Assembly: GCA_015680905.1 (NCBI GenBank)
Contig: CM027382.1
Span: 1,488,001 to 1,552,000, forward strand
From: Coptis chinensis
Taxonomy: Eukaryota > Streptophyta > Magnoliopsida > Ranunculales > Ranunculaceae
DNA length: 64,000 nucleotides
Direction of reading: 5' to 3'
This document shows, piece after piece, positions 7,339 through 44,900 of this stretch (within the stretch, counting starts at the first letter, position 1; every line of letters begins with the position of its first letter). A model generated the notes under the pieces. The model had not been told where the DNA came from. It made no database searches and saw only the letters and a program-made list of their open reading frames with translations. A program made the translations under genes and the position numbers.

Positions 7339-10145
7339 TCAATGGCCCACGTCCCCTTCTAGCATATCTACCACTTTCCTCATGGAAGGCCGCCTCGAAG
7401 GTTCAAACTGGATACACCATAATCCTACCATTTCCAATTTCATTGCAATCTCTTCCTCCTCTTTACCTTGGCATTCATGCCATTTTGAACCTCCTCCATC
7501 ACCATATGTGTTACGTACATGATCTTGAGAAGACCCACTTAGGGAAGTACATCTCACTTGTCTTGCTAACATCAACCTCAAAATTCCTCCTCTTCCCCGC
7601 CATCTCTAACACAACCATTCCAAAGCTATAGACATCGGACTTATCGTCCTTTGGACCAAACTTTGTTGTATGCGGATAAAAGAAAAACAATAGAAAAAGG
7701 ACGACGAATAGCGTGTAATAACCAAGGCGCGGATTAGGTCAGTCTTAAGGAAAGATTTAGCCCTTTCAATGGTGCGAGGAAAGGCTGGCGGTGGCGTCTT
7801 TCCTCACGAGGATTCAATGGTTAACAGCGGTCTAACTTTTGCACTAGAATAGACTACCCTCTAGAACAGCAATATAACTCTCTCTGGCGGGGACGACGGG
7901 AAGAAGAGAAGAAGAAGAAGAAAGCAATCAAAGACTTATCTGTTTCGTGTAGGTAAGAGAAGGGTGTATCACGACTTCAACTTCTGTTTCGCTGGTGTGT
8001 ATGGAGGCAGCACGATTTCTGTAGCTGTGTTTATGTCAACTCCAGCCGAAACTCTACTAGACTAAATGCCCAAGCCCACGACACGGCTCGGTGCGGGGCG
8101 GGCGGGTGGCTTTGGGTGAGTCCTCCCTCCTAACACAAAAGCCTTTGTACCCTAAGGGCACGCCCTTATGCTAGAGGTTCACCTCAAATACCTCACTAGC
8201 TAGTGGTGGTTCATCAATGTGGGACTAAACAACACACAAGTATTTGAAATACACATGAAGATTCCAACAAACTTCTCATACCACATTTCTGGTGGAGCGT
8301 AGCCTGGAGTGCCTGTACCATGTGTCATTGAGATGTGACTATTCTCTTTGTTCAAAGCCATTGCCAACCCAAAATCTGACACCTTTGGCTGAAATTTGTC
8401 ATCTAAAAGGATATTATGCGGCTTAATATCACAATGTAGTATTCTATTTCGACATTCCTCGTGGAGATAAGCAAGTCCTTTGGCTGTTCCAATGGCAATG
8501 TCAAATAGTTGACTCCAAGTCAAAGTCATTATTCCTGGTACATCTTGAGGTGACGATGTGTTTTTGGATTGACCTTTGTTCATATGCTTCTTTTGGAGAA
8601 TGTATTTTTCTAGAGAACCATTCACCAGGTACTCGTAAATAAGAGCTATTCTAAAATGATCAAAGCAATACCCAAGAAGCCGAACTAAATGATTGTGGTG
8701 TATGCAGCCGATCGTGAAGACCTCATTGAGGAACTGAGTCTCGATCTGATTAGTAGTCTCATCGAGGACTTTAACAGCAATGATGAAGCCATTGGGAAGT
8801 TGGCCTTTAAAAACTGAACCAAAGCCTCCTTGGCCAATCTTTTGAGAGAAGTTATCGGTGTACTTCTTGAGTTGCTTGTAGGAAAATCTGGTTGGCCTTT
8901 CTAAAGTGTAGTTGTGCAAGAAAGTCTCTATTGAAGCTGGAGTTGTACCGTTGTCCCGCTCAAAGTAGCGCTGCAACTCATGATCATCTGTGCTTCTAAA
9001 ACGACTATGTTTCTTATGCCTTCGTTTGTATGAAATGTACAAGGCACATAGAAATATGAATGCTGCTCCGGTCAACCCAATCCCTTTTTTCACACAAAGA
9101 AATAGATCAGTAACTGTATTATAGATCCAAACCAAATGAATCTCTCATGTTAAAGAACAACTTGAACCTGTTATTAACTTACCTAAAATAAGTCGAATCG
9201 TCTTGTTGTGAGGTTTGCTTGGAAAATTCATTCCTACAGCATTAAGAATAACAGGATCCCCTTCAAAACAACAATAAAAACTACATTAATCAACCAGAGG
9301 ATCGGATCAACATGACAATCTTGAATCTAAAAAAATAAATAATCACTTCCTGATTACTTACCATCAGTGCAATTGTGTTTGTGAACCCCATCACTACAAA
9401 AGCAATTCAACTCAATATTAGCCTTCCTTTCTTGATTCAAATACCCACATCTTCCGACATCATTTTCCATACATGAATTACAATCTTCATCCCAACTAAC
9501 CTCAAATCCTTCTTGAAGCACTCTTCGCAAATTCCCAACCTTACCAAGATTACCATAGATAGTAACTGGAATATTAACTCTAAATAGACTACAATAATCA
9601 ACATGATCAAGAAACCCATCATAATAAAAACAAAAATTACTAGTCTCACCACACTCCAAACAAGGAGACTTGATCATTTTACCCAGAGTATCTTTATCAG
9701 GTTCTTTAGTACAATTTAAAAAAATACCTCTCCTATAACCAGAAGTGCTATGAAAAGTATCTGTCATGGCCCAATTTTGTGTTTCACCTGAATTTGGCAA
9801 TAAACCAGTATAAGAAGAAATAGTACCACAACCAAAAAAAGATGTGTCAACAATTCTTATTAATTTATTGGTGTAGACTTCATTTGTAAGGTTTTGTAAC
9901 AATTTGAACTTCCTGTGTGTCTCTTCAACTGTGATATAAACTGAGCTGTTTTCACATGTTATCGTTCTGTCTACACCACTACAAAGTGGGCTTCTTCCAA
10001 AAGGAAATTTTAAGATTGAGTTTCCACATGTTGATGGTGCACACTGGTTGTAGTAGTCGGTTGAGTTGGTGGCCGAGTAAATGGGATGGAAGAAAGTTGA
10101 GAAGAAGAATAAGAATTGCAATATATGGTGTAGTGCAATCTTCAT
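7339..10145 (-). CDS. LRK10L/WAK-associated receptor-like kinase, C-lobe apparently frameshifted
   Basis: A plasma-membrane receptor kinase of the leaf-rust-10-like group. Predicted exons: 10145..9362 (signal peptide [25 protein letters not shown] and WAK-associated Cys-rich ectodomain ending NCFCSDG), 9260..9183 (linker), 9083..8269 (membrane segment [16 protein letters not shown] and kinase), and 7660 onward. Phases agree at every junction. Kinase motifs are the loop GQGGFGSVF, Lys in [13 protein letters not shown] (non-RD, as in this group), SDFGLA and GTPGYAPPE; exon 4 continues [20 protein letters not shown]. The frame then reaches a stop after [10 protein letters not shown], while the next frame carries the expected [20 protein letters not shown] and [16 protein letters not shown] further shift would explain the early stop after DVGH. 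It is either a recent pseudogene or has sequencing errors there. The start chosen is the second Met, just before the signal peptide. Confidence 0.85.
7661..8268 (-). other. Intron 3 of the receptor kinase, with locally G+C-rich sequence
   Basis: A 608-bp interval between subdomain VIII and the DVYSFG segment, bounded by GT (8268) and AG (7661) on the minus strand with phase kept at 0. Its middle (about 7720-8170) is richer in G+C and in GAAGAAGA repeats than the surrounding DNA, which suggests inserted foreign sequence. I found no clear terminal repeats and do not assign a family. Confidence 0.55.
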
Positions 10146-10279
10146 TTTTGTCAAAAAAAAGTTCTCTGTCTTTCTTTTGGTGGACACTTATTTTCAAGGG
10201 GAGGGGATGCATATATTGCCGGGAATATTCAAAAGTTAAAGCTCGACTTGGACTTTTGGCACCAAGTATCGGTTGACTT

Positions 10280-14808: not shown

Positions 14809-16703
14809 AGTAGTCTTATCGTTGTACTACCATATAAAATTTAACTTACTAGAGATACTTGTTACTTGTACTTCCTAGATATTATTATGTGTATCAATTC
14901 TAATGTTGTCAGAATGCAACATTAGAATGCATCTTATTATCTATTATGTGTACTACCATACTCAGAATGCATCTTATTATCTGTTTGCTTTATTTAACGC
15001 ATAATTCTTTACCCGTAAGGAGTGAAAATTGTTCAACATGGAAGCCCAAATAGTTTATCCGCTCTTTGGATTCTTGAACACCATTTTCAGAAATTTGAAT
15101 GGCCTAATATTAGCCCGGTTTGCTAAATTACGGGGAATATTAGTTTGTTTTAAATTGTTCGTACCAAGCCTCTTTATATATTGGTTTTTATGTGTTCGAT
15201 GCTGATGGGGAGCACCTAATTTTCTATGTTTCCACGGGGGGAGTGTGGATTGGGAATATTGCAACAAGCCGACAAAACTATGAGAGGTGAGTAGGTAACT
15301 CATCGAGACTTAAATATCAAAAACAATCTCACAAAATTCTTTGTGGTGCTCCTCTATGGGCTACACTCTCGACTCTCCCAGAGAGTATTTTTTGGACATC
15401 CTCCAAGCAATAGTCCCCAATCATGGCCGCGGAGATGAAAGCCTTTCGGTTGAAGCGATAATTGAATGATAAGTTGATGGCCGTGTGGATCGACATGTTT
15501 TTGATGCACGTCCACAAATTCATTAATTATGTAGGTTAGTTGAGTAAAGGAAGTAGAGTATTGTTACGTGCAATAATGTGACATCTGATCTTTTAAGCTG
15601 TAGTCCACGAATAAAAAAGTTTAGGATGTGGTGGGCTGGTGGCTAAGTTTGAGTATCTGGGCACTAGTGTTCTTTTCAAATGTGTTGTACACTTGTACTA
15701 ATTGGACATGTACGTTTTTATTTCCTGAATTTCTTTGGAGTCCGAAGTCCTTGTCGTCTTTTGCTAACCACACCCAAAGATTACAGTGAGTAAAAAGCTC
15801 CTAACCCGCCCCGGCCGACTCTCTAACCCTCTAACAGCCCCTATATAATGGGCTGAAGAGCGGGCAAGGGCTTCATACATTTTCTATTAGCCCGTTTTGG
15901 CCCGGCCCTCAATTTGTGAAGGTTGTAAGTTTTGAGGGCCGAGCTGGCCCGGCCCGGCCCATTTGACAGCACTAGTCCATTCTACACGCAAATACGCAAT
16001 GTTAAGTTATTAACTCGTGTCATTATCCATACAGCTATGGGTGTTGTCAATTAGATTAGATCTCAAACATTTTCTAGTTTCTATCCTTTCCAAAACAAAA
16101 CAAAACAAAACAAATCCTAGCCACTTTCTCCCACTCCCACTCCCACTCCTCTCAAACATTTCTCTCCCTCGCCAATTACAAGATAATTTTTCGTCCTTGG
16201 TAAGTAAAACTCACTAGCTCTCCTATTGTATGTTTTGAAATTTTGTGGTGTAAAGAGATCTGTGAATATTTATCAATAATTATGAAATTTATGAATTATT
16301 TATAAATTTTCAAATTTTTTGAATTTGGAAATAGATTTTGAATAATATTAAAAAAAAAAAACTGAATCGGATTTGGCTAGCATATTGGATTCCGAAAAAA
16401 TTCGGAAAGAGATCAATCTGATCCTATTTGATTTGAAGTCACCCCTACATAGAGCAGAAGCACTTCTAGCTAGAAAAAAAAATATAAAATTAGATTTGCT
16501 CACAATTTGCCTCCATTTCCAGTCAAATGAATGATGATGCCTCTTGTGAACTTGTCATTTTCCCCACTGAATATGGGGAATTTTGATGGTTATCAGTTGT
16601 ACGTGCATCAACACACAGCTTTAAAGTTTTTTTTTTTAAATTTTCTTATCTTTAACGATAGTTAAACATGCAAATTATTGTACAAACTCTCTAATATATA
16701 TAT

Positions 16704-16945
16704 GGGTTAGGATACAGCCACAGGTACTGTAGCCACATTGTGGACACAGCCGATCCACACCTTTCATCTCCCCATCAACCCAACTGATCCTACGGACAAC
16801 AGAAAAAACGAAATTTCAGAAAAACCAAAATTTCAGAAAAACCAAAAAACACGAAATCAGACATAAACACGAAATGTTTACCTTCTTCTCTAATTAGTTC
16901 ATCGTTGTGAAAAACAAAATCTCCTCCAATTTCACCGATCTCTCT
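16704..16945 (+). repeat. Left terminal inverted repeat of the Mutator-like element
   Basis: About 240 bp that pair with 31,925-32,160. The outer 110 bp are the best conserved, with only scattered mismatches. Past GGACAAC the two ends run through A-rich CGAAATTTC repeats and then CACGAAATGTTTACCTTCTTCTC. Confidence 0.85.
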
Positions 16946-17290
16946 CCAAAATCTATAAAGGAGAAAGCGAAAACAAATCTATAAAGAGATTCATTTGAAG
17001 AAGAAATTAGGTATAATTATTCTCTCAACTTAATCTTATTTGGTATTAATGGTTCTTGGTGATTATGTATTTATGTGTAGTGATGATTAACCTTTATGTA
17101 TTCTCCACAAATCAGTATTAATGGTTCTTGATGACGAGTTCACAAATTCATTATTAATCTTATTTGGTATTAATGGTTCTTGATCGACAGAGTTCACAAA
17201 TTTCTTCTTCAATTTATGTGTGACTAATTATGATTATGTATTCTTTTCCTTGCAATGAGATAAGCTAGTGTGTAGTGATGATTAACCTTT

Positions 17291-17415
17291 ATGTTTCTTA
17301 TGTCATCTCATGGAGCATTCTTCATGACTTTAAGCGGACCTACCCTAACTACACAAGCGGTTGCTCCACCTACCTCTGCACCAAATCCAAACACCCGTAA
17401 ATTTGTTCCTCTTCC
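17291..17415 (+). CDS. Possible small exon inside the Mutator-like element
   Basis: An ATG-initiated stretch, MFLMSSHGAFFMTLSGPTLT followed by a Pro/Thr/Asn-rich segment ending RKFVPLP, stops at CC followed by GTGAGT, a strong plant donor. It could be a leader exon of the plus-strand cargo gene, but no connecting exon is clear between here and 19.7 kb. Low confidence. Confidence 0.22.
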
Positions 17416-17544
17416 GTGAGTTGCCATGTGGTTCTAACTTATTATTGTACACTTAGTTTGTTGATCTCAAGTACTATACTCTTACGGTTTCGTAATTGAA
17501 TTTATTCTTGCGAGGGCCCGGTAAGCACTTGATCGATTCATACG

Positions 17545-17890
17545 CGAGGAACGAGCGAGTAAGAATTTTTTTTCTTTTAATAATTTGTTTCTAATTTTGA
17601 TAATTTTTTTTCTTTTAATAATTTGTTTCTAATTTTGATAATTTTTTTTTTGTGTACTTTCATGTTAAACACAATCTTTCATGTGATACATGAAGTTTTT
17701 TGGTTCATTGATGAATCGACTTTTATGATGTCAACGACATTAATGAAATTACTACCGGAGACGGTAAAATGTTGGTTGTTAAAACTTATATGTGATGGTT
17801 TTGGTTCAGCGATGAATCGGACTTTATGATGTCAATCGACGACGAAATTACTACCGAGACGATAAAATGTTGGTTGTTAAAACTTATATG
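17545..17890 (+). repeat. Two short tandem duplications
   Basis: The unit TTTTAATAATTTGTTTCTAA with flanking TTTGATAA is repeated around 17,575 and 17,618. A second pair, about 100 bp each, begins GGTTCA(T/G)(T/C)GATGAATCG and ends ACTTATATGTGATGG (about 17,700-17,797 and 17,802-17,895), with small indels between copies. Confidence 0.75.
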
Positions 17891-18179
17891 TGATGGTCAT
17901 TGGCTCGACTATGCAAGTAAATGTTTTGATCTTGATATGAAAAATCGTCGCTTTGACTTGACCGTATATTGAGCAAGTATTGCAATGAATTATTATGGAA
18001 GTCTTCCTTTTTGTAGGACAAGCTTTAGTTAGTCTGCGATGTTGTGTAAAATTTAGAAACCACAACCTCTACTTACTCATTAGTGAGTATTATCTAGATC
18101 TCTAAATTGTTGAATGAAAGGGAACTATTAATTGAGCTGACAACCCAGCTTGTAATCATACAATCCAATAAATATGTCA

Positions 18180-18315
18180 CCAATTGGATTAATATTATTT
18201 AAAGTCGGTAAAGTTACATCATATATGATTAGAAACCACAACCTCTACTTACTCATTAGTAATACATCAGATATGATTAAACTTTACCGGCTTTAAATAA
18301 TATTAATCCAATTGG
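18180..18315. repeat. Long imperfect hairpin
   Basis: The left arm starts CCAATTGGATTAATATTATT at 18,180. The complement of the right arm ends at 18,315. They match over 36 bp with one mismatch, and a weaker match extends inward through ATCATAT. The loop repeats a 30-bp piece seen at 18,056 (AAACCACAACCTCTACTTAC). It sits at the outer edge of array Q. Confidence 0.8.
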
Positions 18316-18316
18316 T

Positions 18317-19397
18317 TTTGAACTCTATCAGAGTTTTGAACTCTGTCAGAGTTTAGAGTTCGGTGAACTCTGTCAGAGTTTTGAACTCTATCAGAGTTTT
18401 GAACTCTTTCAATGAGTTTGTTCTTTTAGCGATTTCTTCTTTTTTTTTTTTTTTTTTTCTTTAGAGGTTCATAGATGTAAGGTCGTGAATCGGACATTTG
18501 GTATGGCGAGGAGTGTGAGCGGATAAAATGTTATAAACCTAGAAGCACTACTCTAATTTTTTTTTCTTTTGTCCTAGAACTTTGACACGTTCGCTTAGTT
18601 ATTTCTTTTTATTTCTACCATCCTTTCTTTCATCTGTCGAATATCCAATTTCTATTTTTTTAGGACAGAAAAATTTGCAACATATTTAATATTGTTGAGG
18701 TTGAGTAGCGAGGGACAACTAAGTTGGTAGATACAAAGGCCCATTGATTAAGATGCGATTGTCGAACTCATTGAAAAACTTTAGTCTACCAATCTCACTG
18801 TCAGTGTTCAGAGTTTTGAACTCTTTCAGAGTTCGGTGAACTCTGTCAGAGTTCGGTGAACTCTATCAGAGTTTTGAACTCTTTCAGAGTTTTGAACTCT
18901 GTCGAGTTGAGTTTTGAACTCTGTCGAGTTCGGGTGAACTCTTCGAGTTCGAGAGTTGAGTTTTGAACTCTGTTAGAGTTCGGTGAACTCTTTGAGTTTT
19001 GAACTCTGTCGAGGAGTTGATGAACTCTTTCGAGTTAAGAGTTTTGAACTCTTTCGAGTTTTGAACTCTGTAAGAGTTCGTGAACTCTATCGAGTTTTGA
19101 ACTCTTTTCGAGTTTTGAACTTGTCGAAGTTGAGTTTTGAACTCTCGCCGAGTTAGGTGAACTCTTTCGAGTTGAGTTTTGAACTCTGTCGAGTTTTGAA
19201 CTCGTTAGAGTTGATGAACTCTTTTCGAGTTTTGAACTCTGTCGAGGGTTAGGTGAACTCTTCGAGTTAAGAGTTTTGAACTCTGTAAAGAGTTCGGTGA
19301 ACTATGTAAGAGTTTTGAACTCTTTCAGAGTTCGGTGAACTCTGTCAGAGTTTTGAACTCTGTTAGAGTTCGGTGAACTCTGTCAGAGTTTTGAACT
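18317..19397 (+). repeat. Array Q: palindromic tandem repeat AACTCTGTCAGAGTT
   Basis: Two blocks (18,317-18,415 and 18,808-19,397) repeat a near-palindrome AACTCTGTCAGAGTT spaced by TTTG or CGGTG to give a roughly 36-bp double unit. An inverted counterpart lies at 30,776-31,390. Many units in the middle read TGTCGAGTT where flanking units read TGTCAGAGTT. The sequence between the two blocks carries no repeats and no gene that I recognise. Confidence 0.9.
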
Positions 19398-19747
19398 TAG
19401 ATATAGATTGGCATGCACACCGCCTTATTTCGTTCTTTGTTTTTTCACGTTGGTATTGCAACAATTTGAATTAGTTGAATGTCTTATTTTTAACTCCTAT
19501 TTATTTTGTAGCAATGCCTCGAACAAAGAATCTGAAATGAAGAATGCGACAAAAGTGTTTTCCGCGGGTGCTAGAAGTTGTTAGGTGGGGGAGTAGTAGT
19601 TGGTCGCGATGAGGAGCCTGAAAAAGAGGAAGGAGAACAACCACTTCGCATCGGTTAAGTAGAGGGATCGGAAAAGCGGATGATCGGTAATGTTGTAAGT
19701 GGTGTAGAGTTAGGAAATCAAAAAGAGAAGAAAGGGGCACGGTTCTT

Positions 19748-21900
19748 AGTGATGTAGATGTAGATGTAGATTTAGATTTAGATTTAGATTTAGATGTAGA
19801 TGTAGATGTAGATGTAGATGGCGATGGCCGATGACGATGGCGATGGCGATGGCGTAAATATGGATCGTGGGAAGAGTGTAGTTCTAAGTCATGCCGATAG
19901 TGAAGAAGAGGGTGTTGATGATCACGAAGAAAGACCGGCCCGAGGAGGAAGAGGACGGAGGAGGAGGAGGAGGAGGATGACGAGGAAGTCCATGTACTGT
20001 ACCTCCGGTGAATATTGTGAGAAAGTCTAACAATGACTTGGAGTTCAAGAGAGGTGTTTATGGAGGTGGCCCTTGTGTGTCACATCTGTTGTATGACTAT
20101 CACTATCTGCATTGGCTCGCGATGTTTGGGGGGCAGGTAATATTAGTATTTAAATTTTGTATTACGAAACTTGTGCATACATTAATACTAAGTTTTTTGT
20201 TGTTTTAGGCGGGCGAGGGGTGTTGAAGTGCCATGGGCACCTAAACAAGTTGGTACAATGGGATATCCTCGGAGAGTGTTCAAACCTGTTCTACTTTTCA
20301 CGTGGAGCTTCAAAGAAGAACGGCTTATGTGCTCGGTCTTAGGTGTATACAGGCATCGGGGATCTGTGTTGGTCTGCGTTTGTGGAGAGGTGGCTTCGAG
20401 AGACCAACAACGTTTCTTCATATGCCGTGGGGGCGATGAGATGACAATCACGTTGGACGATGTTTCCCAACTCTTAGGAGTTCCGATCGAGAAAGCAGCT
20501 GGCGTGGGGACACCGATTTGACCTTTGGACAGAACAAAAAGACTCCTCCACAAAGATCTTGGCATACCCATGGATAAGATAGATCACGGAGATGAAATCC
20601 AATAAGTTCACTTCCAAAGTTAGGATGGATTTCTTGATGAAGCGATTTCTTTGGGAAGGTAACCGATGAAGATTTACGTGATGAAAATGGGGTTGTTGTG
20701 AAGAAAGCGTCAACCCAAAAAGAGGTGCAGTTCTTTGTGAGAGCTTATCTGTTATTTTTCTTTGGATGTACGCCTTCACCGACCGTCGGAAGGCTGGCAG
20801 TTCCGTTTGTTATCTGAGGCTGCTTTTCGAAATTTGCGAGATCGAGACTTCTGGCGTGGGGTGCGACCTTTACGGCTTACTTGTGCAGGGGTCTTGGGAC
20901 CGCCACAAGTACCAAGGTGAAGGGTGTTTTGGGGCTATTTCACTCTCCTACGGTATTATTTTTTTTGTTTTTCTTTTCAATTATCTATCTATTACAATAT
21001 TAACTGGGTGTCTATATTAATGTAGGCATGGATTTATGAGTACTTCCCGGTGTTCAGGCCATACCCAAATGAGGACTATCAGTTGAGCATGTGCCGTGCT
21101 CGTAGGTACTCGATTACTCGATCTTTTATGCTAGCACAACAGCTGCATTGAAGCATACCCGAGCCACCATTGATAATATGACTTGTACCGATGTAAGCAT
21201 TTTTGTATGTAAATAGTTTTATTTATTAATTGATATTATTAGTATGTGGTTAATGATTAATTTCCTCGATCATATGCTAATTTGACAGGTTGAATGGTAT
21301 CCCTATGTGCAAGTCCGAAAGCTATCACGGCGGTGGATGAAATAGCATTTTTCGAGGGATTTATATGCTTTCTTGATAATGTCGAAGCAATTACAATGTT
21401 TGAGGGTTATGCGTCGGTTAGGTCATATGCAGTTTGTACCCTCGGATCCCCAAGACCAAAGACCTCGAGCGAACTACTTCGGGCCGACGCGGGTATGATG
21501 TGAAATTTAATATTGCATCTTCTACTTGGAGTAAATGGCGAATCACTTGATTCAACTTGAACAACGAGGACCCATTCCGTCTTATCCATGGGAGTGTGTT
21601 AGTAGATACATGAGTTGGTGCGAAAACAATAGTCATATGAGAATGATAAACCCCGATCATCTTAGTCACTACTCCTCCCTGAGTCTTCCATATCATAATC
21701 ACGGTGAGTTAATATCCTACAGCGTTAATTTTTGTTTTGTTTTGTTTTGGTATTTTATAAATGTAAATGTATATACTAATGTAGTTTTTCGTTTTAATTT
21801 TGACAAACCCGTCGTCGATGAAATTTCTCGCTTGCTCAATCAAGGCGCAATTGGGTGGGACTAGCGATTCGTGACGATGCACGTAGCGAGTTCATGGAGG
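19748..21900 (+). pseudogene. Plant mobile domain (PMD) cargo gene of the Mutator-like element, broken
   Basis: The first exon encodes an Asp/Val-Asp/Leu repeat from a GATGTA hexamer run, then an Arg/Gly-rich basic stretch (RPARGGRGRRRRRR). After an intron the aminotransferase-like plant mobile domain follows in pieces: VLKCHGHLNKLVQWDI (about 20,223), FVERWLRETN and EMTITLDDVSQLLGVPI (about 20,385-20,495), a block around 20,800-20,950, WIYEYFPVFRPYPNED (about 21,030), RVMRRLGHMQFVPSDP (about 21,405) and PSYPWECVSRYMSWCENN (about 21,575). These occur in the family's usual order, with plausible introns between some. The reading frame changes between pieces, so this copy is damaged or the sequence has indel errors. 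PMD proteins occur in plant transposons and as host MAIN/MAIL proteins; here the position inside TIRs says transposon cargo. Confidence 0.72.
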
Positions 21901-21959
21901 CATACAATTTGACCCGGTGCAAGTTCATTGGCGGACGATATCGTGAATGAGCATCTTAT

Positions 21960-23930
21960 ACTAGGTATGTTGAGTTTGGTTAGTTTAGGGTTTAGTGGTT
22001 AGCATAGGATTTAGGTATGTTGAGTCCAAACTCAACATAGGGTTTAGTTTACCTCCTTTTATCTTGTGTTGGGACGAGTGTTGGAAATGGAAATGGTGAA
22101 CATGAGGAAGCAGGTGGAGAGGTTAGTTTTGTAGGAATAACCTCTCCACACATGTTGACTTTGAAACTGGAAAGCTTTAAGGATTGTGCTAGTGTATAAC
22201 AGATTAGGACAACAAGGCAAGTTTAGATATACCTTCATGATCCACCAGCACGGGATAGTCCCTAACATGGGGTTTAGGAAGGCCCTAAGGATACTTACAC
22301 AAAGTATGATTCCCAATTCACTAATACAAGTATCCAGTTATCTAAAGGTAAATTGCTCTGGACTATCAGTCCAAGCGATGGATTTCACCTTCTACCCACT
22401 GAACGACAACAAAAGCCCCACTGCCACAGACAGAAGCCTTAGTTTGTCTACTCTAAACTGTTATGCAAATGGCATGTTTACTCAATTTTCTTCGAGAATT
22501 GAAGTTGCTTCTTTCCCATTACTCTTTGATTAAAGAGTGGATGCTACTAAAAATTTCAAATATTACCCACATAATTCACCTTCTCATGTAAACTTGATAT
22601 ACATTTATCTTGTATCCCGGAATCATTGATCACCCATGAAACTAAAAAGTTTGTCTCTTTCAAACTGTTATACTAATGGCAATTCAACTCAATTTTCTTG
22701 GTGAATTTCAAGATACTTAACCCTACTAAATTTATTTGATGAAAGGATACTTAACTTTACAAATATTAGACACACACACTTCATCAGGATGGAAATTTGT
22801 CCAATTTGCCTTGATCATTACGAACTTATCTTATAGGCTGTTAATAGAAGCTTGTTTGCTCTTCTTGACTATTCTGAGAACTGAATCTTTGAATTTGGAG
22901 ACCTTAATAGAATAGATATTACGCTTTAATGATTGCAAAAGGTCTATTGCATAGTTAATTATATTTGGCTTTATCGGAAACATTTGTAATAATCGTTGTT
23001 GCTTACAATGTTCATCCTTATAAGACTTGTAGTGTTCCTCTTGGTGCAGGTTCGCGATAATGGTTTACGCAAAGAATGTTGAAGAAGTTGAAGTTAAGAA
23101 AGTGAGGAAAGCGGGTTCGGACTTGAGTGCCCTCTCTTTAGGCGATAAAAGCGGTGGTCTATTATATATCCGCTTATTTCTTTGAAAGTTATGTCCACTT
23201 CTTGGGAGAGATTGCAGACTTTTGGTCTTGGAGAAGCTGTAGTGTCATTTTTTGGGATGTCAAAGTATTTGAGCATGCGTAACAAACATGTTAACCCTGA
23301 AATTTCTGTTCTGAAACATGTTACTCTGAGTTCACGAGAAGCTTGAGTAACTTATCCATTTCACATTTTAGATTTTGATAACATAGATTTTGAAAACTTA
23401 TTAGTACTTTCGGAGGGTGTATGGTTATTATTGGTGTGGTCGAGGATTGATTACACAAACAAACACTATTCTTTTGCGACTGATTGATTACACTTTTATT
23501 TTTTTGTTTGTGTTACGTGCAAAATGTTGTGTTGTGTATTATTGCCTCTATAAGTCTATGGATTCATCATAGCACGAAAGTATATGGACTTGCAAAGGGG
23601 CACGAAACTTGACCCGAGCCCGATCTAATAATTTTTTCATTTCATTTTGTTGGTCTCCTCGGATAAACGCGGCATTGCTTCATTTGAATTTATTGCTTAG
23701 CCCACCGACAATATCCCGCTTCATTGCGTTTTGCTAGAAAAGTGGCGGACTATAACCCCATGGTTTTCTGAAAAAAAAAGTAATAAAACTTCGAGATGAT
23801 TCCTAAAAACTCAAACGAAATGCTTTCGGCGACTTAAAATTCGGACAATTTGTAGCGTTTACGATTCTTCTAACTATTTCTTCATTCCCTCTTTCAAACA
23901 CGAATCATCAAAGCAGACAACACCATTTTT
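21960..23930 (+). other. Gene-poor interval downstream of the PMD gene
   Basis: No confident gene. A candidate 3' exon follows the acceptor CTTGGTGCAG at about 23,049: in one frame it reads KNVEEVEVKKVRKAGSDLSA, a Lys/Glu-rich tail that could end the PMD protein. The remainder has only short frames without family resemblance. Confidence 0.3.
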
Positions 23931-23935
23931 ACTCA

Positions 23936-24640
23936 CCGTTTTGGGACTAAGGCCAAACGGTGTAGCCACACCGTTTGGGACTAAGGACAAACGGTGTGGC
24001 CACATCGTTTGGGACTAAGGACAAACGGTGTGGCCACATCGTTTTTGTACTAAAGGCCAAACGGTGTGGCCACACCGTTGGGGACTAAGGACAAACAGAC
24101 AACACCATTTTTACCCGGTTCAAATCCCAAAGCGGTGTGGCACACACCGTTTTGGGATAAGGACAAAACGGTGTGGCCACACCGTTTGGGACTAAGGACA
24201 ACCGAGACAACACCATTTTTACCCGGTTCAAATCCCAAATGGTGTGGCACACGTTTGGGACTAAGGACAAGCGGTGTGGCCACACCGTTGGGACTAAGGA
24301 CAAGCGGTGTGGCCCACATCGTTTTTTGTACTAAGGCCAAACGGTGTGGACACACCATTTTGGGACTAAGGACAAACGGACACCATTTTTAACCCGGTTC
24401 AAATCCCGGCGGTGTGGCACCGTTTTTTTAAGAACTAAAAAGCGGTGTGGCCACACCGTTTGGTCAATTAAGGACAAGCGGTGTGGCCACATCGTTTTGT
24501 CTTAAGAATGCCAACAAGCGGTGTGGCAACACCGTTTGGGACTAAGGAACAACCAACAACGGACAACACCATTTTTACCCGGTTCAAATCCCAAGCGGTG
24601 GAGTAAGTCCAAGCGGTGTGGTCACACCGTTCAAGAGGCA
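23936..24640 (+). repeat. Array P: perfect palindrome AACGGTGTGGCCACACCGTT in tandem
   Basis: More than a dozen copies, exact or with small changes, of a 16-20 bp perfect palindrome centred on GGCC. They are separated by TGGGACTAAGGACAA and interspersed with a second motif, CACCATTTTTACCCGGTTCA followed by AATCCCAA, about five times. The array separates the PMD gene from the transposase. An inverted copy of both motifs lies at 28,095-28,365. Confidence 0.93.
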
Positions 24641-24659
24641 AAAACACGCAGACACCACC

Positions 24660-25390
24660 ATTTTATCCAAGTTCAACTGTTATACTAAAACTCAAGTTCA
24701 TATAATTTACACAAACCCGACTTGTAAAACTTACGAAGGTAATCAAGTTCGACATATAATCAAGTTCATATAATTTACTAAACTTCCGATTGGTTCCAAA
24801 ATGAATAAATAGTTTACTAAAACTATGATAACTAAAAACTCGACAATTCACCCAAATAACTAAAACTCGACAATTCACCCAAATAACTAAAACCCAAATA
24901 AAACTCAAATCACTAAAACTTCTTCACAATTCGAACTCGACAGCCCCACCAAATAAAGTTGGTGACATGAATGGCGTAGATATTCGGTGTCCTCAAACAG
25001 CCCCACCACCGCTCCTTGCTAGGTTCCATCTGGCGGGATAAAACCTGGATAAAGGGAAATGTTATCATTTGTGCCCCTCGTCTTAGTTCTCCTCCCCATC
25101 CTCGTCTTCCCGTTCTCCTCTCAATTAAAATTCTCTCGTCCTCTAACTCTACATCCAATCGTAAATCAAAAGAATGGAAAAGCGTTAAGTTTTAAAGGCA
25201 ATTGTGTAAGATAGGATACTACGAATTAAGCTTAAGGAAACAATATTATACTTTGGGCCGCTTCTTTTTTGTTTGGATTTTCGGGACAATTTAAATCACT
25301 GTCATGGTTAACACCAACTTTGTTACAACATGTACATCTCCTCTCTGTCTTTGCTTTGGCTTTTGGCGCATGCTTGTTCAAGACCCCTTT
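24660..25390. other. Interval between array P and the transposase 3' end
   Basis: It contains a short direct duplication of CTCGACAATTCACCCAAATA at about 24,840-24,895. I see no recognisable gene; this may include the transposase 3' untranslated region. Confidence 0.35.
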
Positions 25391-25399
25391 TATTCTACC

Positions 25400-27700
25400 A
25401 TTTCGTCCTTAGTTTTCTTATAAATCTTCGACTTTTTTTTTCTTCCTTTTGTTTGAGAGATGTTAGGATTCAAAAGTAAAACTTGGGATAGGTCAAGTGG
25501 CGATCTTTGAACTATCGGCAATAGTGCATGAATTAACAACCGAAACACCGAGTGGTCAACTTCCTTCGTTTCTTGAGCTCCAGCGACAGTTCTTGCAGTC
25601 TTTGTAGCATTAATTGGTAAAATTTGAATCGGTTTCCGCGGCTTCATAAACCAACCGATTAGCAACCATTTGAAGTCGAAGTAATTCTCGATTACCTCGA
25701 GTTCTCATGGCCACTTACCCGATCCCGGTCATACTTTCGGCTATACTTATTTGCCCCTTTCATCCACCTCTTAAGAATAAAGAGCTCGGGAATCTCAATA
25801 TCGCGACTCACGAAATACCTTTATGAGGTGTCCACAAGGTATCCCCGAAATTCAAAAGTTTTGCATTCACAATTACCTTCTTTTGTCATTTGGGTTGAAC
25901 TTCACCTTCCATTCATTTTCACCGTAACTTCGCGACTTATAAGTGTAGGTTCTCATGTCGATTACCTTTTTATCATCATGCGGGACATACTTCGGTTTAA
26001 ATTTAACGAATTCTTGCTTGAATCTATCATAAGCATTCCTTGTGTATACACTTGTCGCACTTTTCAAGAGAAATGAATTCGCCTATAATCCGATTCGAGT
26101 GTTCAAGAATATAATCCTCTTTTTTTTCTCTTTCAACAATCCTCATCAAACACTTATCATTCTTCACTACAAACTCTCTAAGAGTTGTCGTAGATGTGAA
26201 AAAGTTCTTGTAAACGAAATTCATGCTTTTAAAGCGCCCGGTAGTGAAGTGGCGCCAACATAAAAAGTATCAAGTGATAAACTGGAGCCCATTTGTGTCG
26301 AATCTTGTACATCTCTTGAAGCCATTCATTCTCCTCCAACTTAAAACTAGACATCAATTCTGCCCACCTCCTTTCAAACACATCAGGGAATAAATATTTG
26401 CGAATACGATTGTTTGAATTCTTTTTTGAATTTTGACTTAGATAATAATAATTTGGAAGTTTTTCAGGGAACTTCTTCATAATATGCCATAGAATCAGGT
26501 CGAAAGTATTAGGGAATACCGCACCAATAGCTAGAGTCATAGCTCTATCTTGATCTGTGATAATTGCGGATGGGGCACGCCCCGCCCATAGCTCAAGCCA
26601 AGTCTCAAAACCCACTGAAAAAGAATCTTACGTTTCATCCAAAAGTAGTGCACAACCAAATTGGATTGATTGCATATGGTGGTTAACTCGATGAAATGGG
26701 GGCGAATGGCATTTCATATACATTCTTCCGATATGTGGTATCAAAGAAAACCACGTCACCAAAATATTGAAGGTGGTAATGCTTGACCGACCATCTACCC
26801 GAAAAAATTAATGGCCCTTGCTTCATGATCCATCCGTATTGCATAAAAAGAAATTAGGATCCTCTATACTTTTTTCTTGAAAAATGAAGCACCGCGGTAG
26901 CATCACCTCTCACGGTTTCTTGTATTCTTTTGAGGGGCCCAAATGGTTCCAACAATCCCTATCATCAAAACCAATTTGTACTCCGTCAAGTATATCAACA
27001 ACTTTATTCACAGGTACACCACCATCACGAAATGAGTCAATCAACACCTTAGCTGCAGCGGGCATATTTCTATTAACAGGGCATACGCATTCTTTTGCGG
27101 ACTAACCCGGGTTGTGATTGTGCTCGCTACTAAATTTCATCACTTTCCGTGATTCCACTATTTTGCTTTGTCACCCTCATTCAAGCAAGGCACCCACATT
27201 TAAGCAGTATTTGTGTTTCTTTTTCTCACTTCTTTCTCAGTTCCATCCACATTCTTATTTTTGCCTCCTCGATCTCTATAAACCCCAAATCGCGAGCAAG
27301 TCATTTGACAACTACTAACTTCATCCGAACGAGAAACTGATTTTTTGAGCTTCAATTCTTGGACTAAATCCAAACGATTTTCCGTAAGCTATATAGAATT
27401 GTTTTCTTTGCCTCAAGAGTTTCAAAACACATTCCCAAACATGGTGGCTTCACAATTTCCACTTCCACTTCAAACTCGGAGGTTGAACAGAGGAAGAAAA
27501 TGCCACGAAGTGCCGCAAAAGACTCGTATCTGCAAATAAATGTGTCCACGTCAAAAATAAAACAAATAAACTAACCGCGGTACAATATCTGATATTGAAT
27601 TAGTTGGTAGAAATCGAAAATAAAATTGAAACATTAGCTCACTCCGAACCGTATTCTTCCTTCTCTCCGACTTCATCAATCAATATTGAGTCGTCCATCT
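25400..27700 (-). pseudogene. FAR1/FHY3-like MULE transposase, broken
   Basis: Reading the minus strand: a likely first exon at 27,700-27,640 (MDDSILIDEVGEKEEYG, then donor GTGAGC). Next, an exon from about 27,520 carries the start of the FAR1 DNA-binding region (LGMCFETLEEAK-like). Around 26,870-26,640 come FFYAIRMDHEARA-like and HHMQSIQFGCALLLDE, the upstream part of the MULE catalytic domain. The best-preserved block at 26,615-26,229 includes WAGRAPSAIITDQDRAMTLA, then IGAVFPN, LWHIMKKFPEKLP and the NEWLQEMY/WAPVY region. At about 25,860-25,740 a SWIM-like segment CECKTFEFRG and EIPELFILKRWMKGANK complete the family order. Several frame changes and stops separate these blocks. The domain order is that of FAR1/FHY3-type Mutator transposases. 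It is flanked by inverted arrays P and P'. Confidence 0.82.
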
Positions 27701-28094
27701 GATAACAAAAATGTCAAAATTGTGGAAACAAGGGCATTGTGAACAAAGTATAGTAGCAACTACAACTCAAACAAATTGTTGTCCATTTAAGCAAGTCACA
27801 AGTGTAAATGTATAATAAGGCTAGTCGAGAAAATGCATAAGGAAATTCAAAATAGAGAAATTAATGAGAAATAGAGAAATTACCTTTTGTGAAAGAAGCA
27901 CCACGCCCAAAGAGAGAACCCAGCTCGTGAATTATGGAGAGAAGAGGGTAGAAATTTTTTGGAGAAGAATTCTCGATGTAATTTTTTGGAGAAGAATTCT
28001 CGATGTAATGTTTTGTTTATTTCGTGTTTTTTGCTTTGCAAAATTTTGTTTTTCTGAAATTTCGTTTGGGATTTGAGCGTGGATCTGTTTTTTT

Positions 28095-28365
28095 TCTCTC
28101 TTGAGCGGTCGCGGCCACACCGTTTTCACTAGGTCCCAAAACGGTGTGGCCATGCCGCCGTTTGGGATTTGAGCTTGATAAAAATGGTGGTCTGTTTTTT
28201 CCCTCTTGAACGGTGTGATCAAACCGTTTGGATTTAGTCCCAAAACGGTGTGGCCATGTCGTTTGGGATTTGAGCTTGGATAAAATGGTGTTGTTCTGTT
28301 TTTTGCCTCTTGAGCGGTGTGGCCACACCGTTCAAAAGGTGTTTAGGGTTTAGGCCACACCGTTC
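28095..28365 (-). repeat. Array P' (inverted copy of array P)
   Basis: Five or six copies of the CGGTGTGGCCACACCG palindrome, several altered. They are spaced by TTTGGGATTTGAGC and by a TAAAATGGTGTTGTTCTG motif that is the complement of the ACACCATTTTTACCC motif of array P. The orientation is opposite to 23,936-24,640, so the two arrays bracket the transposase as an inverted pair. Confidence 0.88.
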
Positions 28366-28892
28366 AAGATGCAAAAACAGTATTTTATGTGTTTTGGCAA
28401 AACATTACGTTCTGCAATGACAAACTAAAATGCAAGTTGTCGCCGAGTGTAAAACTAGTACGGACTTGTGTTATGTTATGTTAGCTTGTGCTTTTTCAGT
28501 CGGTGTTCTCATTGTCTTTTTTCTATTCTCTACTTGTTTTTTTTGTATGTTTTCGTGAAATACCAATACTCGGACGGCTTGTACTTGTTCTCGGCGGCTT
28601 GTAGGAACTTGTTTATCTTTATGTTTATGACAACAAAAAAACTATTTAAATTGTAGGAACTGTGATGGAGCTTTTATTTAGTTTTTTTTATTTTTACGGC
28701 CGAAACTATTAGAACAAACTACCAATCAAACTTATTCATTGTTATTAGAACAAACTACCAATCAAATTTATTCATTGTTACATCAACACAAGATTCGTAG
28801 CAAATAAATCGAGTCATAGTTTCTGATAGATAAGCACAAGTTCACCACAAGTTTATAACCGAGTCATAGTTACATGAGTCATAACCACAAGT

Positions 28893-29550
28893 TCACCACA
28901 AGTTGTTACCAAGATAAGCAAAATGGATTAACCAGACAAGTTCACAAAATGAATTAACCAGCATAATTACATTCACCACAAGTTCACAAAAAAAACACAA
29001 TACAAAGAACTTGAAATCAACCACGCACTCATCTAATTTTACAATGAAACTCGAATTCTTTCGACAAACCATCGTCGTCAATTTCAAGTGTAATTTTGAC
29101 TTTTTATCTTTTTTTGAAGACGAGGAAGAGGTGACTGTGGAAGAGCTTGAACTCGCTGCCAACTCAATGTTGCTCCTTAACCAAGCTAACAAAGTATCCA
29201 ACCATTCAAAATCCTTCCCACACTCGGTGCAATTCAAGAATTTTCTGCCTTTATTTTCCGTTTTTCTTCATTGTTGTGTTAACCTTTCAAACCCAGCGCA
29301 ATTCAAAATTTATGCATCTTAGATTCTCTAGAGGTACTAATGCGATGCTCTCGCGTCTTCCAACCATTGGAAGTCTCCGTAGCGGACAGTCAAAAAATTT
29401 TCCCAAGAGATGGATTTGGCTCGATTTGCTTCGGGATCCTACTTCCACGGCATTTTCGAATGCAACAAGGCGAAGACAACCAACAACATTTCTCGATGAA
29501 TGAGTGTTATCACCACACCTATTGCACAGAGTTCTTTCCATCTCTGATAA
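28893..29550 (-). pseudogene. Probable GRF zinc-finger-like cargo gene
   Basis: An ATG at 29,550 opens MERTLCNRCGDNTHSSRNVV. Downstream, in overlapping frames, are NPSLGKIF, DCPLRR, YGDFQWLED and NCTECGKDFEWLD, which resemble the C-x-C...NP-x-R-x-F...C-x-[FD]-F-x-W-x-D pattern of zf-GRF proteins common in plant transposons. A Ser-rich, Lys-rich tail (SSSSSKKDKKSKLHLKL) and a hydrophobic segment FFVLCFFCELVVNVIML follow, as in At4g04775-like proteins. Frames shift between the motifs, so the gene is broken or contains sequence errors. Alternative: unrelated reading frames with chance Cys residues. Confidence 0.4.
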
Positions 29551-29599
29551 CAAAAATCCAAACAAACAAACATCCATTTAGCTACACTTGTCTAACAAA

Positions 29600-30770
29600 C
29601 CAATAAAAAGAAAACTACGACCTATTTGAACTAGGACACAAGGACGCGACTAATTAAAAAGAAAACTATTTCTATTCTTTAGTTACACAACTAACTCTTG
29701 GGTTCAAGACCTTAAAAGTGTCTCTTTACAGATAAATAACTATGGAAGTGGCCATATGTCATATACAAAGTGTCCATGTTACTTAGCAAAATCCAAAATT
29801 TGATTTTTGTCATCACTCGAAGGTTTGAAGATATCTCTTGGACACCACCTCGATTGTATAACTATCCAAATCACCTTTTCCTTTGCAACTTCATCTCTAA
29901 AGCGTATTTAAGAATTAGCCTCACGCCTTCACATTAGATATTCTAACTTCAACTTCCCAATTTTGTATCAATGCTCTTTTTTCATATAGACTTTAAAGAA
30001 GTAAAGTCACGAGGTACTAAGTAAAACTTCACGAAAAAAAGGCTTCCATTAGCCTATAGTAAAAGTACATAGTCAAAAGAAGGAAAACCAACCACATAAA
30101 GTATCTTCCCTGCAGTAACCTTTACAAAGCGGGGGGTCAAGTCTATTACCCTAGTCCAATGCGGGTCGATTACTCATGAAAGTATTTTTGACCACGAGTT
30201 TGGTGAACATTTGGGCTTTAAACCTAGTGTTAGAGGAGGCTCTTGGAAATATGGCTTAGAAGACTTAAGATAAAATCAATGCAATCGATGTCATATGTCG
30301 TACTTTGTACAAATTCAGATCTCTTACAATGATTGTTAAGGTGAACTAAAGAGAAGAGGGTATTCCACACTCTCTTCATGGCAATGTGAGCGAAAGAGAT
30401 AAAGAGAGGCCTCCGGTTTTACGCAAGAGAATCAAATGTCTTTCAAAACCAAAACATCGCAAGCTTCAAACACATTTCCACGTAAGTCCCCTCGATCCGA
30501 CTAAATACAAAAGAAAGCCCATGCACAACCATAAAAGTGAGTTCTTCCCTACTTCACTTGTCCAACAAACCAATAAAAGTTGAGTTTTCCAATTTTATAT
30601 AGAAAGTCGGGGCTAAACCGGAGATCCAAGAACAACTTAAAACCTAAGCGCACAATGCGGATGCATCTAAAAGCTTGTTGTAGCTCACAGGCGCATTAAC
30701 TGGAGACAAAGAGGAAAAAGTATACATATTTCGAGGGTGGCTCCTAACTCACTTCATTTCAAATGAGCCA
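29600..30770. other. Interval between the GRF-like frame and array Q'
   Basis: No convincing gene; only short frames on both strands without family resemblance. I see nothing else in it. Confidence 0.4.
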
Positions 30771-30775
30771 ATTCT

Positions 30776-31444
30776 GTTAACTCTGAACTCTGACAGAGTT
30801 CAAAACTCTGACAGAGTAGTTCAAAACTCTGAAAGAGTTCACCGAACTCTGACAGAGTTCAAAACTTTGAACTCTGACAGAGTTCAAAACTCTGAACTCT
30901 AACAGAGTTCAAAACTCTGAACTCTAACAGAGTTCAAAACTCTGATAGAGTTCACCGTTCATAACTTCATTGCTTGATTTAATGATTTATTTATTTTGAA
31001 TCATTCATCTCTTATAACAGAGTTCAAAACTTTGAACTCTTTCAGAGTTCGGTGAACTCGGCCGACAGAGTTCACCGAACTTTGAAAGAGTTCAAAACTC
31101 GAACTTCTCGAAAGAGTTCACCGAACTCTAACAGAGAGTTCAAAACTCGAACTCGAAAGAGTTCAAAACTCTAACAGAGTTCACGAAGTTCAAAACCGAG
31201 TTCTGAAGTTCAAAACTCAAGAACTCAGAAAGAGTTCAAAACTCGAACTCGAAAGAGTTCACCGAACTCGACAGGCCGAGTTCAAAACTTTAAACTCGAA
31301 AGAGTTCAAAACTCGACAGAGTTCAAAACTCGAACTCGAAGAGTTCAAAACTCGATAGAGTTCACCGAACTCGATGAGTTCACCGTTCATAACTTCATTG
31401 CTTGATTTAATGATTTATTTATTTTGAATCATTCATCTCTTATA
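30776..31444 (-). repeat. Array Q' (inverted copy of array Q)
   Basis: Many copies of AACTCTGACAGAGTT, the complement of the array Q unit, with spacers CAAAA and CACCG. A unique stretch beginning ATAACTTCATTGCTTGATTT recurs almost exactly at about 30,960 and 31,388, so the array has duplicated itself at least once. As in array Q, the interior units often lack two or more bases. Confidence 0.9.
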
Positions 31445-31924
31445 AATCCAATCAAGTAAAACAAACAAAATATCTTCAATTAATTATTCAATCCCACTTA
31501 AATGTTTATAAAGCAAACAAATATCAAACAAACCCATAGCAACGCCAATTAGTTCCATAAAAAGAAGCAAAATCCCAATTTATGAACAACAAAATCTTGT
31601 TTGAATGGAAGAAACAAACTGTGAAAATAAAGGGTTGCTCGACTTAAACCAAGCTTGAAACGAAGATTGATTAGATCAATGAACACCTTAATTCAACACA
31701 ACAATGGTTAATTAGCACATTGTTTTCGAAGTGAAACTTGATTTTTGGAGATAAGATTAAAAGAGAGAATGTAAACACAAACCTTAATTGTTTTGGGAGA
31801 GTGTATTTGTGTCCATCCATTTTTTTTTGGAGATTGATTAAGTAAACACCGATTTTTTTGGAGAAGAAGGTAAACATTCGATTTTTTATTTGAATCCTAT
31901 TTTGATTGTTTATCACATCGATTG

Positions 31925-32160
31925 TCACAATGATTGTCTGCTTGAAATTGGAGGAGATTGTCCAATCGATTTTTTTTTTTTGGAGAAGAAGGTAAACATT
32001 TCGTGTTTTTGTTTTCAAAATTTACGAAATTTTGGTTTTTCGAAATTTCGTTTTTTTTCCGTTGTCCGTAGGATCGGTTGGGTTGATGGGGAGATGAAAG
32101 GTGTGGATCGGTCAGTGTCCACAATGTGGCTCAAGACTGTGTGGTCACGTATCCTAACCC
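31925..32160 (-). repeat. Right terminal inverted repeat of the Mutator-like element
   Basis: Pairs with 16,704-16,945. The outermost bases are GTATCCTAACCC, followed directly by the 9-bp repeat TATATATAT. Confidence 0.85.
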
Positions 32161-32193
32161 TATATATATTCTCTTCTCCATCCCCCTTATTCC

Positions 32194-42860: not shown

Positions 42861-44900
42861 TACTGACCGATTAGTACCATCTTATTAGTAATATATATAT
42901 ATGCCATTGGAGAGTACGACACTTTTGGAACAAAAAAAGTATAGAGAGCTATACTACAAGTTGATTTTACTATTTTTTCATGCACACCACTAGTTTACAT
43001 AGCACATGAAGGAGATATGAAGTTTACGAACTCCTTTTGCAATGATAGTGTTACACACTAAACATAAAAAGCTTGATCGATAGTACTCGACCATGTTTAG
43101 GATATAGAAAACGAGTGGTGGATACTCAAAAAGTAGTTACTCTATAAATTGTTTGGTCTCTTTTTCTTTAGAGAGATTGTCTCATGTGGCTGTTTCTCAT
43201 TGTATTTTTTTTCAACTCTCCCAATAGAATAAAAATCTCAAAAAAAAAAAAAACACACACACACACAAATCGACAAAAAAAAACCCGTATTAATAACTTC
43301 AAAAAGAAAAACCAAACTCAATTCAACATAATTTTATTGAAGAATCAAAGTGATGGTCGGTCGATTGGAATGGAGATGGGGAAAAAGAATTAATCATAGA
43401 CCATTTATGTTTTTTTTGTTGTTTGCTCCTCCTATTTATGATCTCTAATTTTAATCTGGAAAGATGAAGGGAGAAATTTGTGAGAGAAGAAAATGAGTGG
43501 GTGAAAAAGAAAGCTCAATTTTTTGAGTGTATAACTTGAATGAAATCAATGAATAATAAAATGATGTATTTCTCTCTCCTGTCGTTATCTCACATAAACC
43601 CAAATATCTTTTTTTCTGGTTTCACAATCTACTTGGTTTATACCCTATTCCCCAAATATCTTTTTTTCTGGTTTCACAATCTACTTGGTTTATACCCTAC
43701 TCGTTAGTTGTGGCCCCAATTCATAAAATGGACGGGAACACTAAAAACTAGTATACATGGTCTTATTCCACAGGTTGGTCAATTCATGCTGCCAATACAA
43801 ACCTAAATACACTGAGTCACTTTTTTGGTAATCACTTATTCACTTTTCAACTAAGTGAAATGACCATTAATGTGGAAGCTATCGATCTTACATTAGTTGA
43901 AATTGGCAATTTCTCAACATCAACACATTAACAGTTCAATTAACAATCTTGAACTAGATTTGAAAACCAAATATTTTGAACTTTACCTCGCTAAATCTTA
44001 TCAAACAGCAATGTTCATTTCTTTGTAAAACTGAACCAATGAGATGTTTATGAATTTGAATCGTCTCATTGAGAGAGTAGATCATTATATCCCAAATACT
44101 TATAAAAAAAAAATGAATATCAATCCACAAACATAAATTTAGTTAATCCCCTAAAAAACATTGGTATATTAAGAAAATGGATGGGAGGAGGTAGATCTTT
44201 ATAATATGTGGTGTAAGTTATAGACTTAATAGTAGATTGAACCATTAGTAAAAATATCAAACACCTACAAATGAGCGAGGTTAGGTCTAATAGTTGGTGA
44301 AATAAAATCTCAAACATAACAATAACTTTTGACAAAATTATTGTGTATGCGTAGAAGAAAACTAGTCCACTGTTTCACCCACAAGTCTAGAACAAGAGAC
44401 GTTGTGACCGTGACATAAAAATAAGATGGTCCCACACTATTAACCCTCAATTCAATGAACCTTCACCCAAAAAAACTCATTTTTTTCCCCAAGCCAAACA
44501 GAGAATAAGAGAAGCGTCTTCTTTTATTCTTTTTCGTCATCTTTAAATTTTTTACTCTCACTTGAAAAATGCTCGATTCAAATCTGTAATTGCAAAAATT
44601 GGCATCAGCTCAAATGTCAAAAGTTACAATCTTTAGTCAAGGTATCAATTCCAGATAAGTTAATTGGCGTGGTTTTTTATTTATTGCCAGTAAAGTTTCC
44701 ATATTTTGTTAGTTAAACTTTTATGTGAGGTGTATTAAGTGATTTTGTGGCATGCCATTTTTGATTGTTGAGTTGAAATTTTTAGAGATTTTACTATCCA
44801 AGTGTTTAATGACAGAGAATCTTTAGATTTATTGTGGAAGATGTGTTGGAATTAAGTTAATTGAGGAGAATATGAGATGAGTTTGATTGGAATGTGAGAA

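Follow-up and report, generated by a model that had tools for sequence, protein, structure and literature searches.

Nested inverted arrays of palindromic motifs in a large, multi-gene Mutator-like element of Coptis chinensis

What might two different kinds of short-motif array, each present as an inverted pair, be doing inside a single transposable element? This question is raised by a Mutator-type element of 15,457 bp that occupies positions 16704-32160 of a 64,000-nt window from Coptis chinensis (GCA_015680905.1, CM027382.1, positions 1,488,001-1,552,000 of the forward strand); here, the window is the whole stretch of DNA that was analyzed, and all positions given below are positions within it. 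From left to right, the element consists of a terminal inverted repeat (TIR), array Q, a plant mobile domain (PMD) gene, array P, a FAR1/MULE transposase gene, array P', a GRF-like gene, array Q', and the second TIR. It is plausible that the arrays are binding sites of the element's own proteins, with the VANDAL/VANC system of Arabidopsis as a direct precedent.

The assignment to the Mutator-like elements (MULEs) is supported by a MULE domain above the Pfam cut-off, by matching TIRs, and by identical 9-bp flanks, and it agrees with the initial annotation. The TIRs, put at ~240 bp in that annotation, aligned over ~231 bp on the left and 218 bp on the right (reverse complement), in agreement with the long TIRs of the Mutator superfamily; their inner limit varies with scoring, and under laxer scoring they extend, at low identity, to 594/538 bp. 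Over the outermost 118 bp of the TIRs, 108 positions match, against 6 substitutions and 7 gap openings, and a core of 59 nt is 97% complementary. The 9-bp flanking repeats claimed earlier were found to be identical at 9/9 bases; both are TATATATAT, a low-complexity TA repeat whose length falls within the 8-11 bp expected of MULE target site duplications (TSDs), and TA repeats are described as the insertion target of the MuTAnT family (PMC4486113). Because TATATATAT can be matched 35 times in the window when overlaps are allowed and both flanks are counted, the flanking 9-mer is weak evidence alone, consistent with a Mutator TSD but no proof of one. When the element was compared to the window by BLAST (E-values (E) up to 1e-3), three matches were obtained outside of the element, all of them short and of low complexity, and none of them involving the TIRs or the units of the arrays. 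These data indicate one inserted, large, multi-gene Mutator-like element, the family status of which is drawn from one copy.

Pattern counts and inverted-versus-direct alignments agreed in supporting the nested inverted array pairs and the element order that had been proposed from the letters alone. The word GAGTTTTGAACT was found 21 times in the window, on each occasion inside Q, and its reverse complement AGTTCAAAACTC was found 13 times, on each occasion inside Q'. A second Q unit, GAGTTCGGTGAACTC, is present in seven copies, six in Q and, as an exception, one in Q' (at 31045), and all four copies of its reverse complement are in Q'; that is, the same two unit types occur in both arms in mirrored orientation. 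Array Q is composed of two blocks (18310-18411 and 18808-19397), with 26 of the 32 intervals between successive GAACTC words measuring 16-24 bp. When up to two mismatches were allowed, each short Q word matched once outside the element (at 11995 and 55758), compared to shuffle means of 1.55 and 1.4. For CGGTGTGGCCACACCG, the palindrome of array P, allowing up to three mismatches gave 15 matches in the window (11 in P, 4 in P', and none elsewhere), whereas each of 20 dinucleotide shuffles gave 0 matches. Local alignment scores were far higher in inverted than in direct orientation for Q against Q' (382 versus 71) and for P against P' (149 versus 55), and Q/Q' and P/P' are therefore true inverted pairs; on the same scores, the candidate view of the arrays as orientation-free palindromes was rejected. 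P and Q are unrelated to each other (alignment scores of 18-20). The term palindrome, which had been applied to both array types, holds for five P/P' units, which are perfect over 16-22 nt, but the Q units are imperfect palindromes; similarly, the gene compartments said to be partitioned by the arrays are positioned as stated, but the term describes position and nothing further. Exact array patterns had 0 matches in viral_contigs (P and Q) and in genome_contigs (P only), which are viral and prokaryotic sets with little bearing on a plant element.

The spacers between TIR and Q in the two arms showed no similarity to each other (score 29, null maximum 45), nor did the flanks of P compared to those of P' (outer score 24, null maximum 30; inner score 23, null maximum 32). 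Because the spacers are dissimilar while both arms share the unit types, the arrays, together with the TIRs, are what is retained between the arms, and this likeness fits either constraint or gene conversion. A 70-nt segment is duplicated identically in and beside Q' (30948-31017 and 31376-31445), apparently as a sign of recent array turnover. Separately, an inverted repeat with 51-nt arms (18179-18316; arms 92% complementary and 36 nt apart) adjoins the first Q block.

To identify the genes, Pfam profiles were searched against the gene regions, with frames read through stops as X. The gene order and three-gene content of the initial annotation were retained, although at unequal strength, with MULE strong, PMD partial, and FAR1 and GRF weak. 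The MULE domain (PF10551; E 9.8e-11, 42.4 bits against a cut-off of 27.6) was the sole domain to pass its Pfam cut-off, and its open piece at 26229-26627 alone was slightly under that cut-off (E 4.2e-6, 27.5 bits). The PMD (PF10536) matched over 76 residues at 20713-20940 (E 9.3e-4; 18.9 bits, below the cut-off of 34.9); a second PMD piece (20192-20518) gave E 0.089, and two further pieces of the PMD region, searched in one frame each, gave no Pfam match. The FAR1 match lies in a broken frame (E 0.012, or 0.0061 in a smaller region). On the GRF-like piece, Zn_ribbon_GRF_2 was matched at E 0.053-0.054 and DUF6434 slightly better (E 0.037), and the adjacent piece 29287-29577 had no Pfam match. 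A search of three frames of 25000-26230 for a C-terminal SWIM/CCHC finger returned 0 families at E up to 10, these frames being disrupted, and the transposase piece retrieved only two weak nucleoprotein matches from the PDB (E 0.055 and 0.35). The PMD gene is on the plus strand and the transposase and GRF-like genes are on the minus strand, so that the PMD gene, as judged from its partial match, is antisense to the transposase gene and both converge on P.

Each of the three genes has the inner-TIR block upstream. The copy ahead of the transposase gene is internal (28009-28067) and aligned to the left TIR with a score of 73 (dinucleotide null maximum 41 in 300 shuffles and 37 in 500) and to the right TIR with a score of 51 (null maximum 43). 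A complete second TIR inside the element was rejected as a candidate; the inner block was all that was found, and the internal copy lacks the outermost 102 bp of the TIR and with them its tip. By eye, an AG/GT donor follows each inner-TIR block, with introns starting from 17011, 27883, and 31782, and an acceptor stands just ahead of the ATG of each gene (19514, 27698, and 29541). The acceptor regions of the transposase and GRF-like genes share a short stretch (score 31, with 0/300 shuffles as high); the PMD acceptor was not above shuffles when compared to either of the other two (23/300 and 239/300 as high). Between the GRF-like gene and Q', a search of 29600-30760 in three frames found nothing in Pfam better than E 0.22. 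Provided that these introns are real, the two outer genes would have Q and Q' inside their leader introns, and the intergenic spacers would contain P and P'.

Table 1. Positions, strands, and supporting basis of features of the Coptis chinensis element.
Feature	Position	Strand	Basis or remark
Left target site duplication, TATATATAT	16695..16703	.	Low complexity
Left TIR, tip GGGTTAGGATAC	16704..16934	+	Alignment; inner block 16806-16869 common to 28009-28067
Putative leader intron of PMD gene, contains Q	17011..19511	+	By eye: AG/GT donor 17010/17011, acceptor TTTTGTAG ending 19511, ATG 19514
Array Q, units GAGTTTTGAACTC and GAGTTCGGTGAACTC (imperfect palindromes)	18310..19400	+	Pattern counts
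PMD gene, approximate extent, broken frames	19514..23150	+	Partial Pfam match
CpG-poor stretch in PMD gene	21967..23049	.	10 CpG, observed/expected 0.29; the rest 0.94
Array P, palindrome CGGTGTGGCCACACCG, asymmetric linkers	23930..24645	+	Pattern counts and alignment
FAR1/MULE transposase gene, approximate extent, broken frames	24900..27698	-	Homology supported only at ~26474-27401
Putative short leader intron of transposase gene	27699..27883	-	By eye; ATG 27698
Internal copy of inner-TIR block	28009..28067	-	Directly 5' of transposase gene, same direction as gene
Array P', inverted relative to P	28090..28375	-	Pattern counts and alignment
GRF-like zinc-ribbon gene (weak), approximate extent	28893..29543	-	Zn_ribbon_GRF_2 below cut-off
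Putative leader intron of GRF-like gene, contains Q'	29544..31782	-	By eye; ATG 29541
Array Q', inverted relative to Q	30779..31385	-	Pattern counts and alignment
Right TIR	31943..32160	-	Alignment to left TIR
Right target site duplication, TATATATAT	32161..32169	.	Low complexity

The CpG observed/expected ratio averaged 0.91 in 15 one-kb windows inside the element compared to 0.58 in 47 outside of it (two end-spanning windows omitted; one-sided Mann-Whitney P 1.8e-5, with neighboring windows not independent), and by part it was 0.96 in the transposase, 0.84 in the PMD, and 0.78 in the GRF-like portion. Searched in six frames at E up to 1, the CpG-poor stretch in the PMD gene matched nothing in Pfam; it is probably an intron that carries host-type DNA, either captured or inserted. 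The high CpG content would be expected if the element is young or lightly methylated, and it is compatible with anti-silencing but does not prove it.

The explanation that is favored, tentatively, is that the arrays serve as recognition platforms for element-encoded DNA-binding proteins, following the logic of VANDAL/VANC; it is placed ahead of end binding by the transposase, neutral expansion, and a composite origin, in that order. This explanation is supported by the arrays being non-random and confined to the element and by the dyad symmetry of the P units, and a precedent is provided by the non-coding motif arrays of VANDAL21, which are bound by its own VANC21 (PMC5735166). Each gene is preceded by an inner-TIR-derived block, which may act as a promoter. 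Element-encoded DNA-binding proteins, most likely dimers, would bind the dyad-symmetric Q and P motifs, this binding would mark the element as self, and the bound proteins would counter host silencing of the control regions of the element, as VANC does on VANDAL motif arrays. That binding takes place, which protein binds, and that silencing is countered are all inferred; in a speculation by Ikeda et al., the anti-silencing of transposable elements is assigned to captured PMDs (PMC5418596). A further proposal, which we regard as unlikely, is a two-word self-recognition code of a FAR1-type MULE, in which the two accessory genes would carry one word (Q) in their leader introns, the transposase gene would be flanked by the other (P), and a different element-encoded protein (PMD, GRF-like, or transposase) would read each word, separately from VANDAL/VANC.

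Several observations weigh against the arrays being recognition platforms of this kind. The FAR1 and GRF labels are below their Pfam cut-offs, the introns were placed by eye, tandem arrays can expand neutrally, and CpG retention could be explained by youth alone. The Pfam matches obtained for the gene regions, the frames of which are broken, did not include DUF1985, the domain of VANC. Furthermore, the VANC21 motif YAGTATTAY has 1 match in the 64 kb, outside the element, against a chance mean of 2.6; because motifs differ between VANDALs, this excludes only a VANDAL21 target. Lastly, the PMD and transposase frames are broken by stops and shifts in this copy. Four hand-picked repeat pairs in the element (the 118-bp TIR arms, a 98-bp duplication, P units, and P' units) contained 18 substitutions and 23 gap openings, compared to 56 substitutions and 15 gap openings in six hand-picked pairs outside (Fisher P 0.0003); the full 231/218-bp TIR (11 substitutions, 17 gaps) was left out of this sum because it overlaps the 118-bp piece. 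One of the outside repeats, which adjoins the element at 32245, is itself gap-rich (18 substitutions, 10 gaps), and without it the outside pairs contain 38 substitutions and 5 gaps. Because the element pairs are gap-rich, most of the outside pairs are not, and two long host open reading frames (ORFs; 443 and 407 aa) are uninterrupted, the frame breaks may stem from residual assembly indels in a repeat; alternatively, they may reflect real decay.

The arrays could instead be subterminal transposase-binding repeats, with a FAR1-type transposase joining the ends and the inversion following from end symmetry. Subterminal tandem repeats are reported in 10/12 long-TIR MULE families of Aedes aegypti, with Muta1 among those described (PMC5225508), and Q and Q' are indeed present on both arms and inverted, with one exceptional unit; however, distances of 1.6 kb (Q) and 0.8 kb (Q') separate these arrays from the tips and put them outside the TIRs, P and P' are found 7.2 and 3.8 kb into the element, and two unrelated motifs would be required. 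End binding is thus considered rather doubtful. Somewhat unlikely as well, and ranked after it, is the possibility that the arrays are functionless by-products of tandem expansion and inverted duplication, their likeness being kept by gene conversion. The variable and indel-rich array units, the recent turnover suggested by the 70-nt duplication, and further short duplications within the element are all in accordance with this possibility, but it sits poorly with two separate motif types forming inverted pairs outside recognized domains, and with unit types common to both arms despite the dissimilar neighboring spacers.

A composite origin, in which an outer element (TIR, Q, PMD, GRF, Q', TIR) acquired an inner transposase element (P to P') by insertion or recombination, is judged improbable. 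No exact direct repeat of 8-12 bp was found between 23750-23960 and 28330-28520, nor was inverted similarity found outside the P arrays (score 24, null mean 24, maximum 42), and a nested insertion of an inner element was rejected because these intervals hold no TSD or inverted sequence around the P pair. The P pair does bracket the transposase gene, a fragment of the inner TIR is located inward of P', and additional internal TIRs have been described in MULEs (PMC3310237); however, this fragment lacks the outer part and tip of the TIR, and CpG is retained in the inner and outer parts alike.

The initial annotation knew of no described family with this layout, and a PMD together with three genes and two distinct inverted array pairs was not found among the open-access literature matches listed; the single components, however, are each in print. 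PMD genes, often antisense to the transposase, are common in several plant MULE groups, including half of the VANDAL group (PMC6446971, Table 1), a three-ORF MULE has been described as Abermu (PMC9168764), and motif arrays are reported in the introns, intergenic regions, and terminal non-coding regions of VANDAL21 (PMC5735166). Similar to the present element, VANDAL21, described with VANDAL6 from Arabidopsis (PMC5735166, PMC10398659), is a three-gene MULE with dense tandem arrays of a short motif in non-coding DNA, there in one orientation, and half of the VANDAL members tabulated carry a PMD and/or DUF (PMC6446971, Table 1). Dissimilar from this element, VANDAL TIRs are called degenerate (PMC10398659) and are tabulated at 46-174 bp (PMC6446971, Table 1), a description that the ~231/218-bp TIRs do not fit; VANC has a DUF1985 domain, and the arrays of VANDAL21 carry the VANC21 motif rather than two unrelated motifs as inverted pairs. 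Because of its long TIRs and its lack of a DUF1985 match and of the VANC21 motif, the element was not filed as a VANDAL, and it may, by analogy, work like one.

Other PMD-bearing plant MULEs (groups 42 and 45-50 in Table 1 of PMC6446971; see also PMC5418596) also have a PMD gene, antisense to the transposase in several groups, but FAR1 is tabulated in only two members of an oomycete sub-group, and the table mentions no arrays for these groups. PMD-transposase fusions in MULEs are described by Ikeda et al. (PMC5418596), whereas here the PMD is a separate, convergent gene. The Jittery group (group 36, PMC6446971) shares the FAR1 N-terminus, which is weak here, and has TIRs of 39-292 bp or none; it differs, as tabulated, in having one ORF, no PMD listed, and a TSD of 8 bp or not indicated. 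AutoMuTAnT, with a Jittery-like transposase, is 4.9 kb compared to the 15,457 bp of this element, and MuTAnTs are described as inserting in TA repeats and as carrying up to four distal G/C (PMC4486113). Hvu_Abermu (PMC9168764) likewise has three ORFs, one of them opposite to the transposase, a 9-bp TSD, TIRs of >100 bp, and a large size for a MULE, but it is 8.2 kb, its transposase is MURA-like, its other ORFs are described as of unknown function, and neither 'tandem repeat' nor 'palindrom' occurs in its main text. In Muta1 of A. aegypti (PMC5225508), both arms likewise contain tandem repeats together with a palindromic motif, but these repeats are within 145-bp TIRs of a one-gene, 3.2-kb element, and multiple-TIR MULEs (PMC3310237) contain internal TIR-derived sequence without its own TSD, whereas here only ~64 bp of the inner TIR is repeated, at a gene 5' end. 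Compared to these published descriptions, what stands out is a large element of the FAR1/MULE type that carries a PMD and in which arrays of dyad motifs form two nested inverted pairs.

In the neighborhood of the element, two open ORFs at 44898-46226 and 50511-51731 matched Myb/SANT-like DNA-binding domains (Myb_DNA-bind_4, E 7.9e-16 and 9.7e-32), and we take both to be trihelix-like. Two minus-strand ORFs are located at 8200-10187, of which the one at 8200-9144 has a protein kinase match (E 1.8e-34) and the one at 9354-10187 is presumably the extracellular part of a receptor kinase. A 217-bp unit is present in five tandem copies, with 93% matches, at 57356-58449.

In Arabidopsis, PMD proteins act in silencing, and DNA transposons have captured the PMD (PMC5418596). 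With a PMD gene and dense, element-specific arrays in likely control regions, the element would make the speculation on anti-silencing directly testable. If the two-word code were true, it would represent a system for anti-silencing or expression timing apart from VANDAL/VANC, and the element could show whether self-recognition of the VANDAL type arose more than one time in MULEs.

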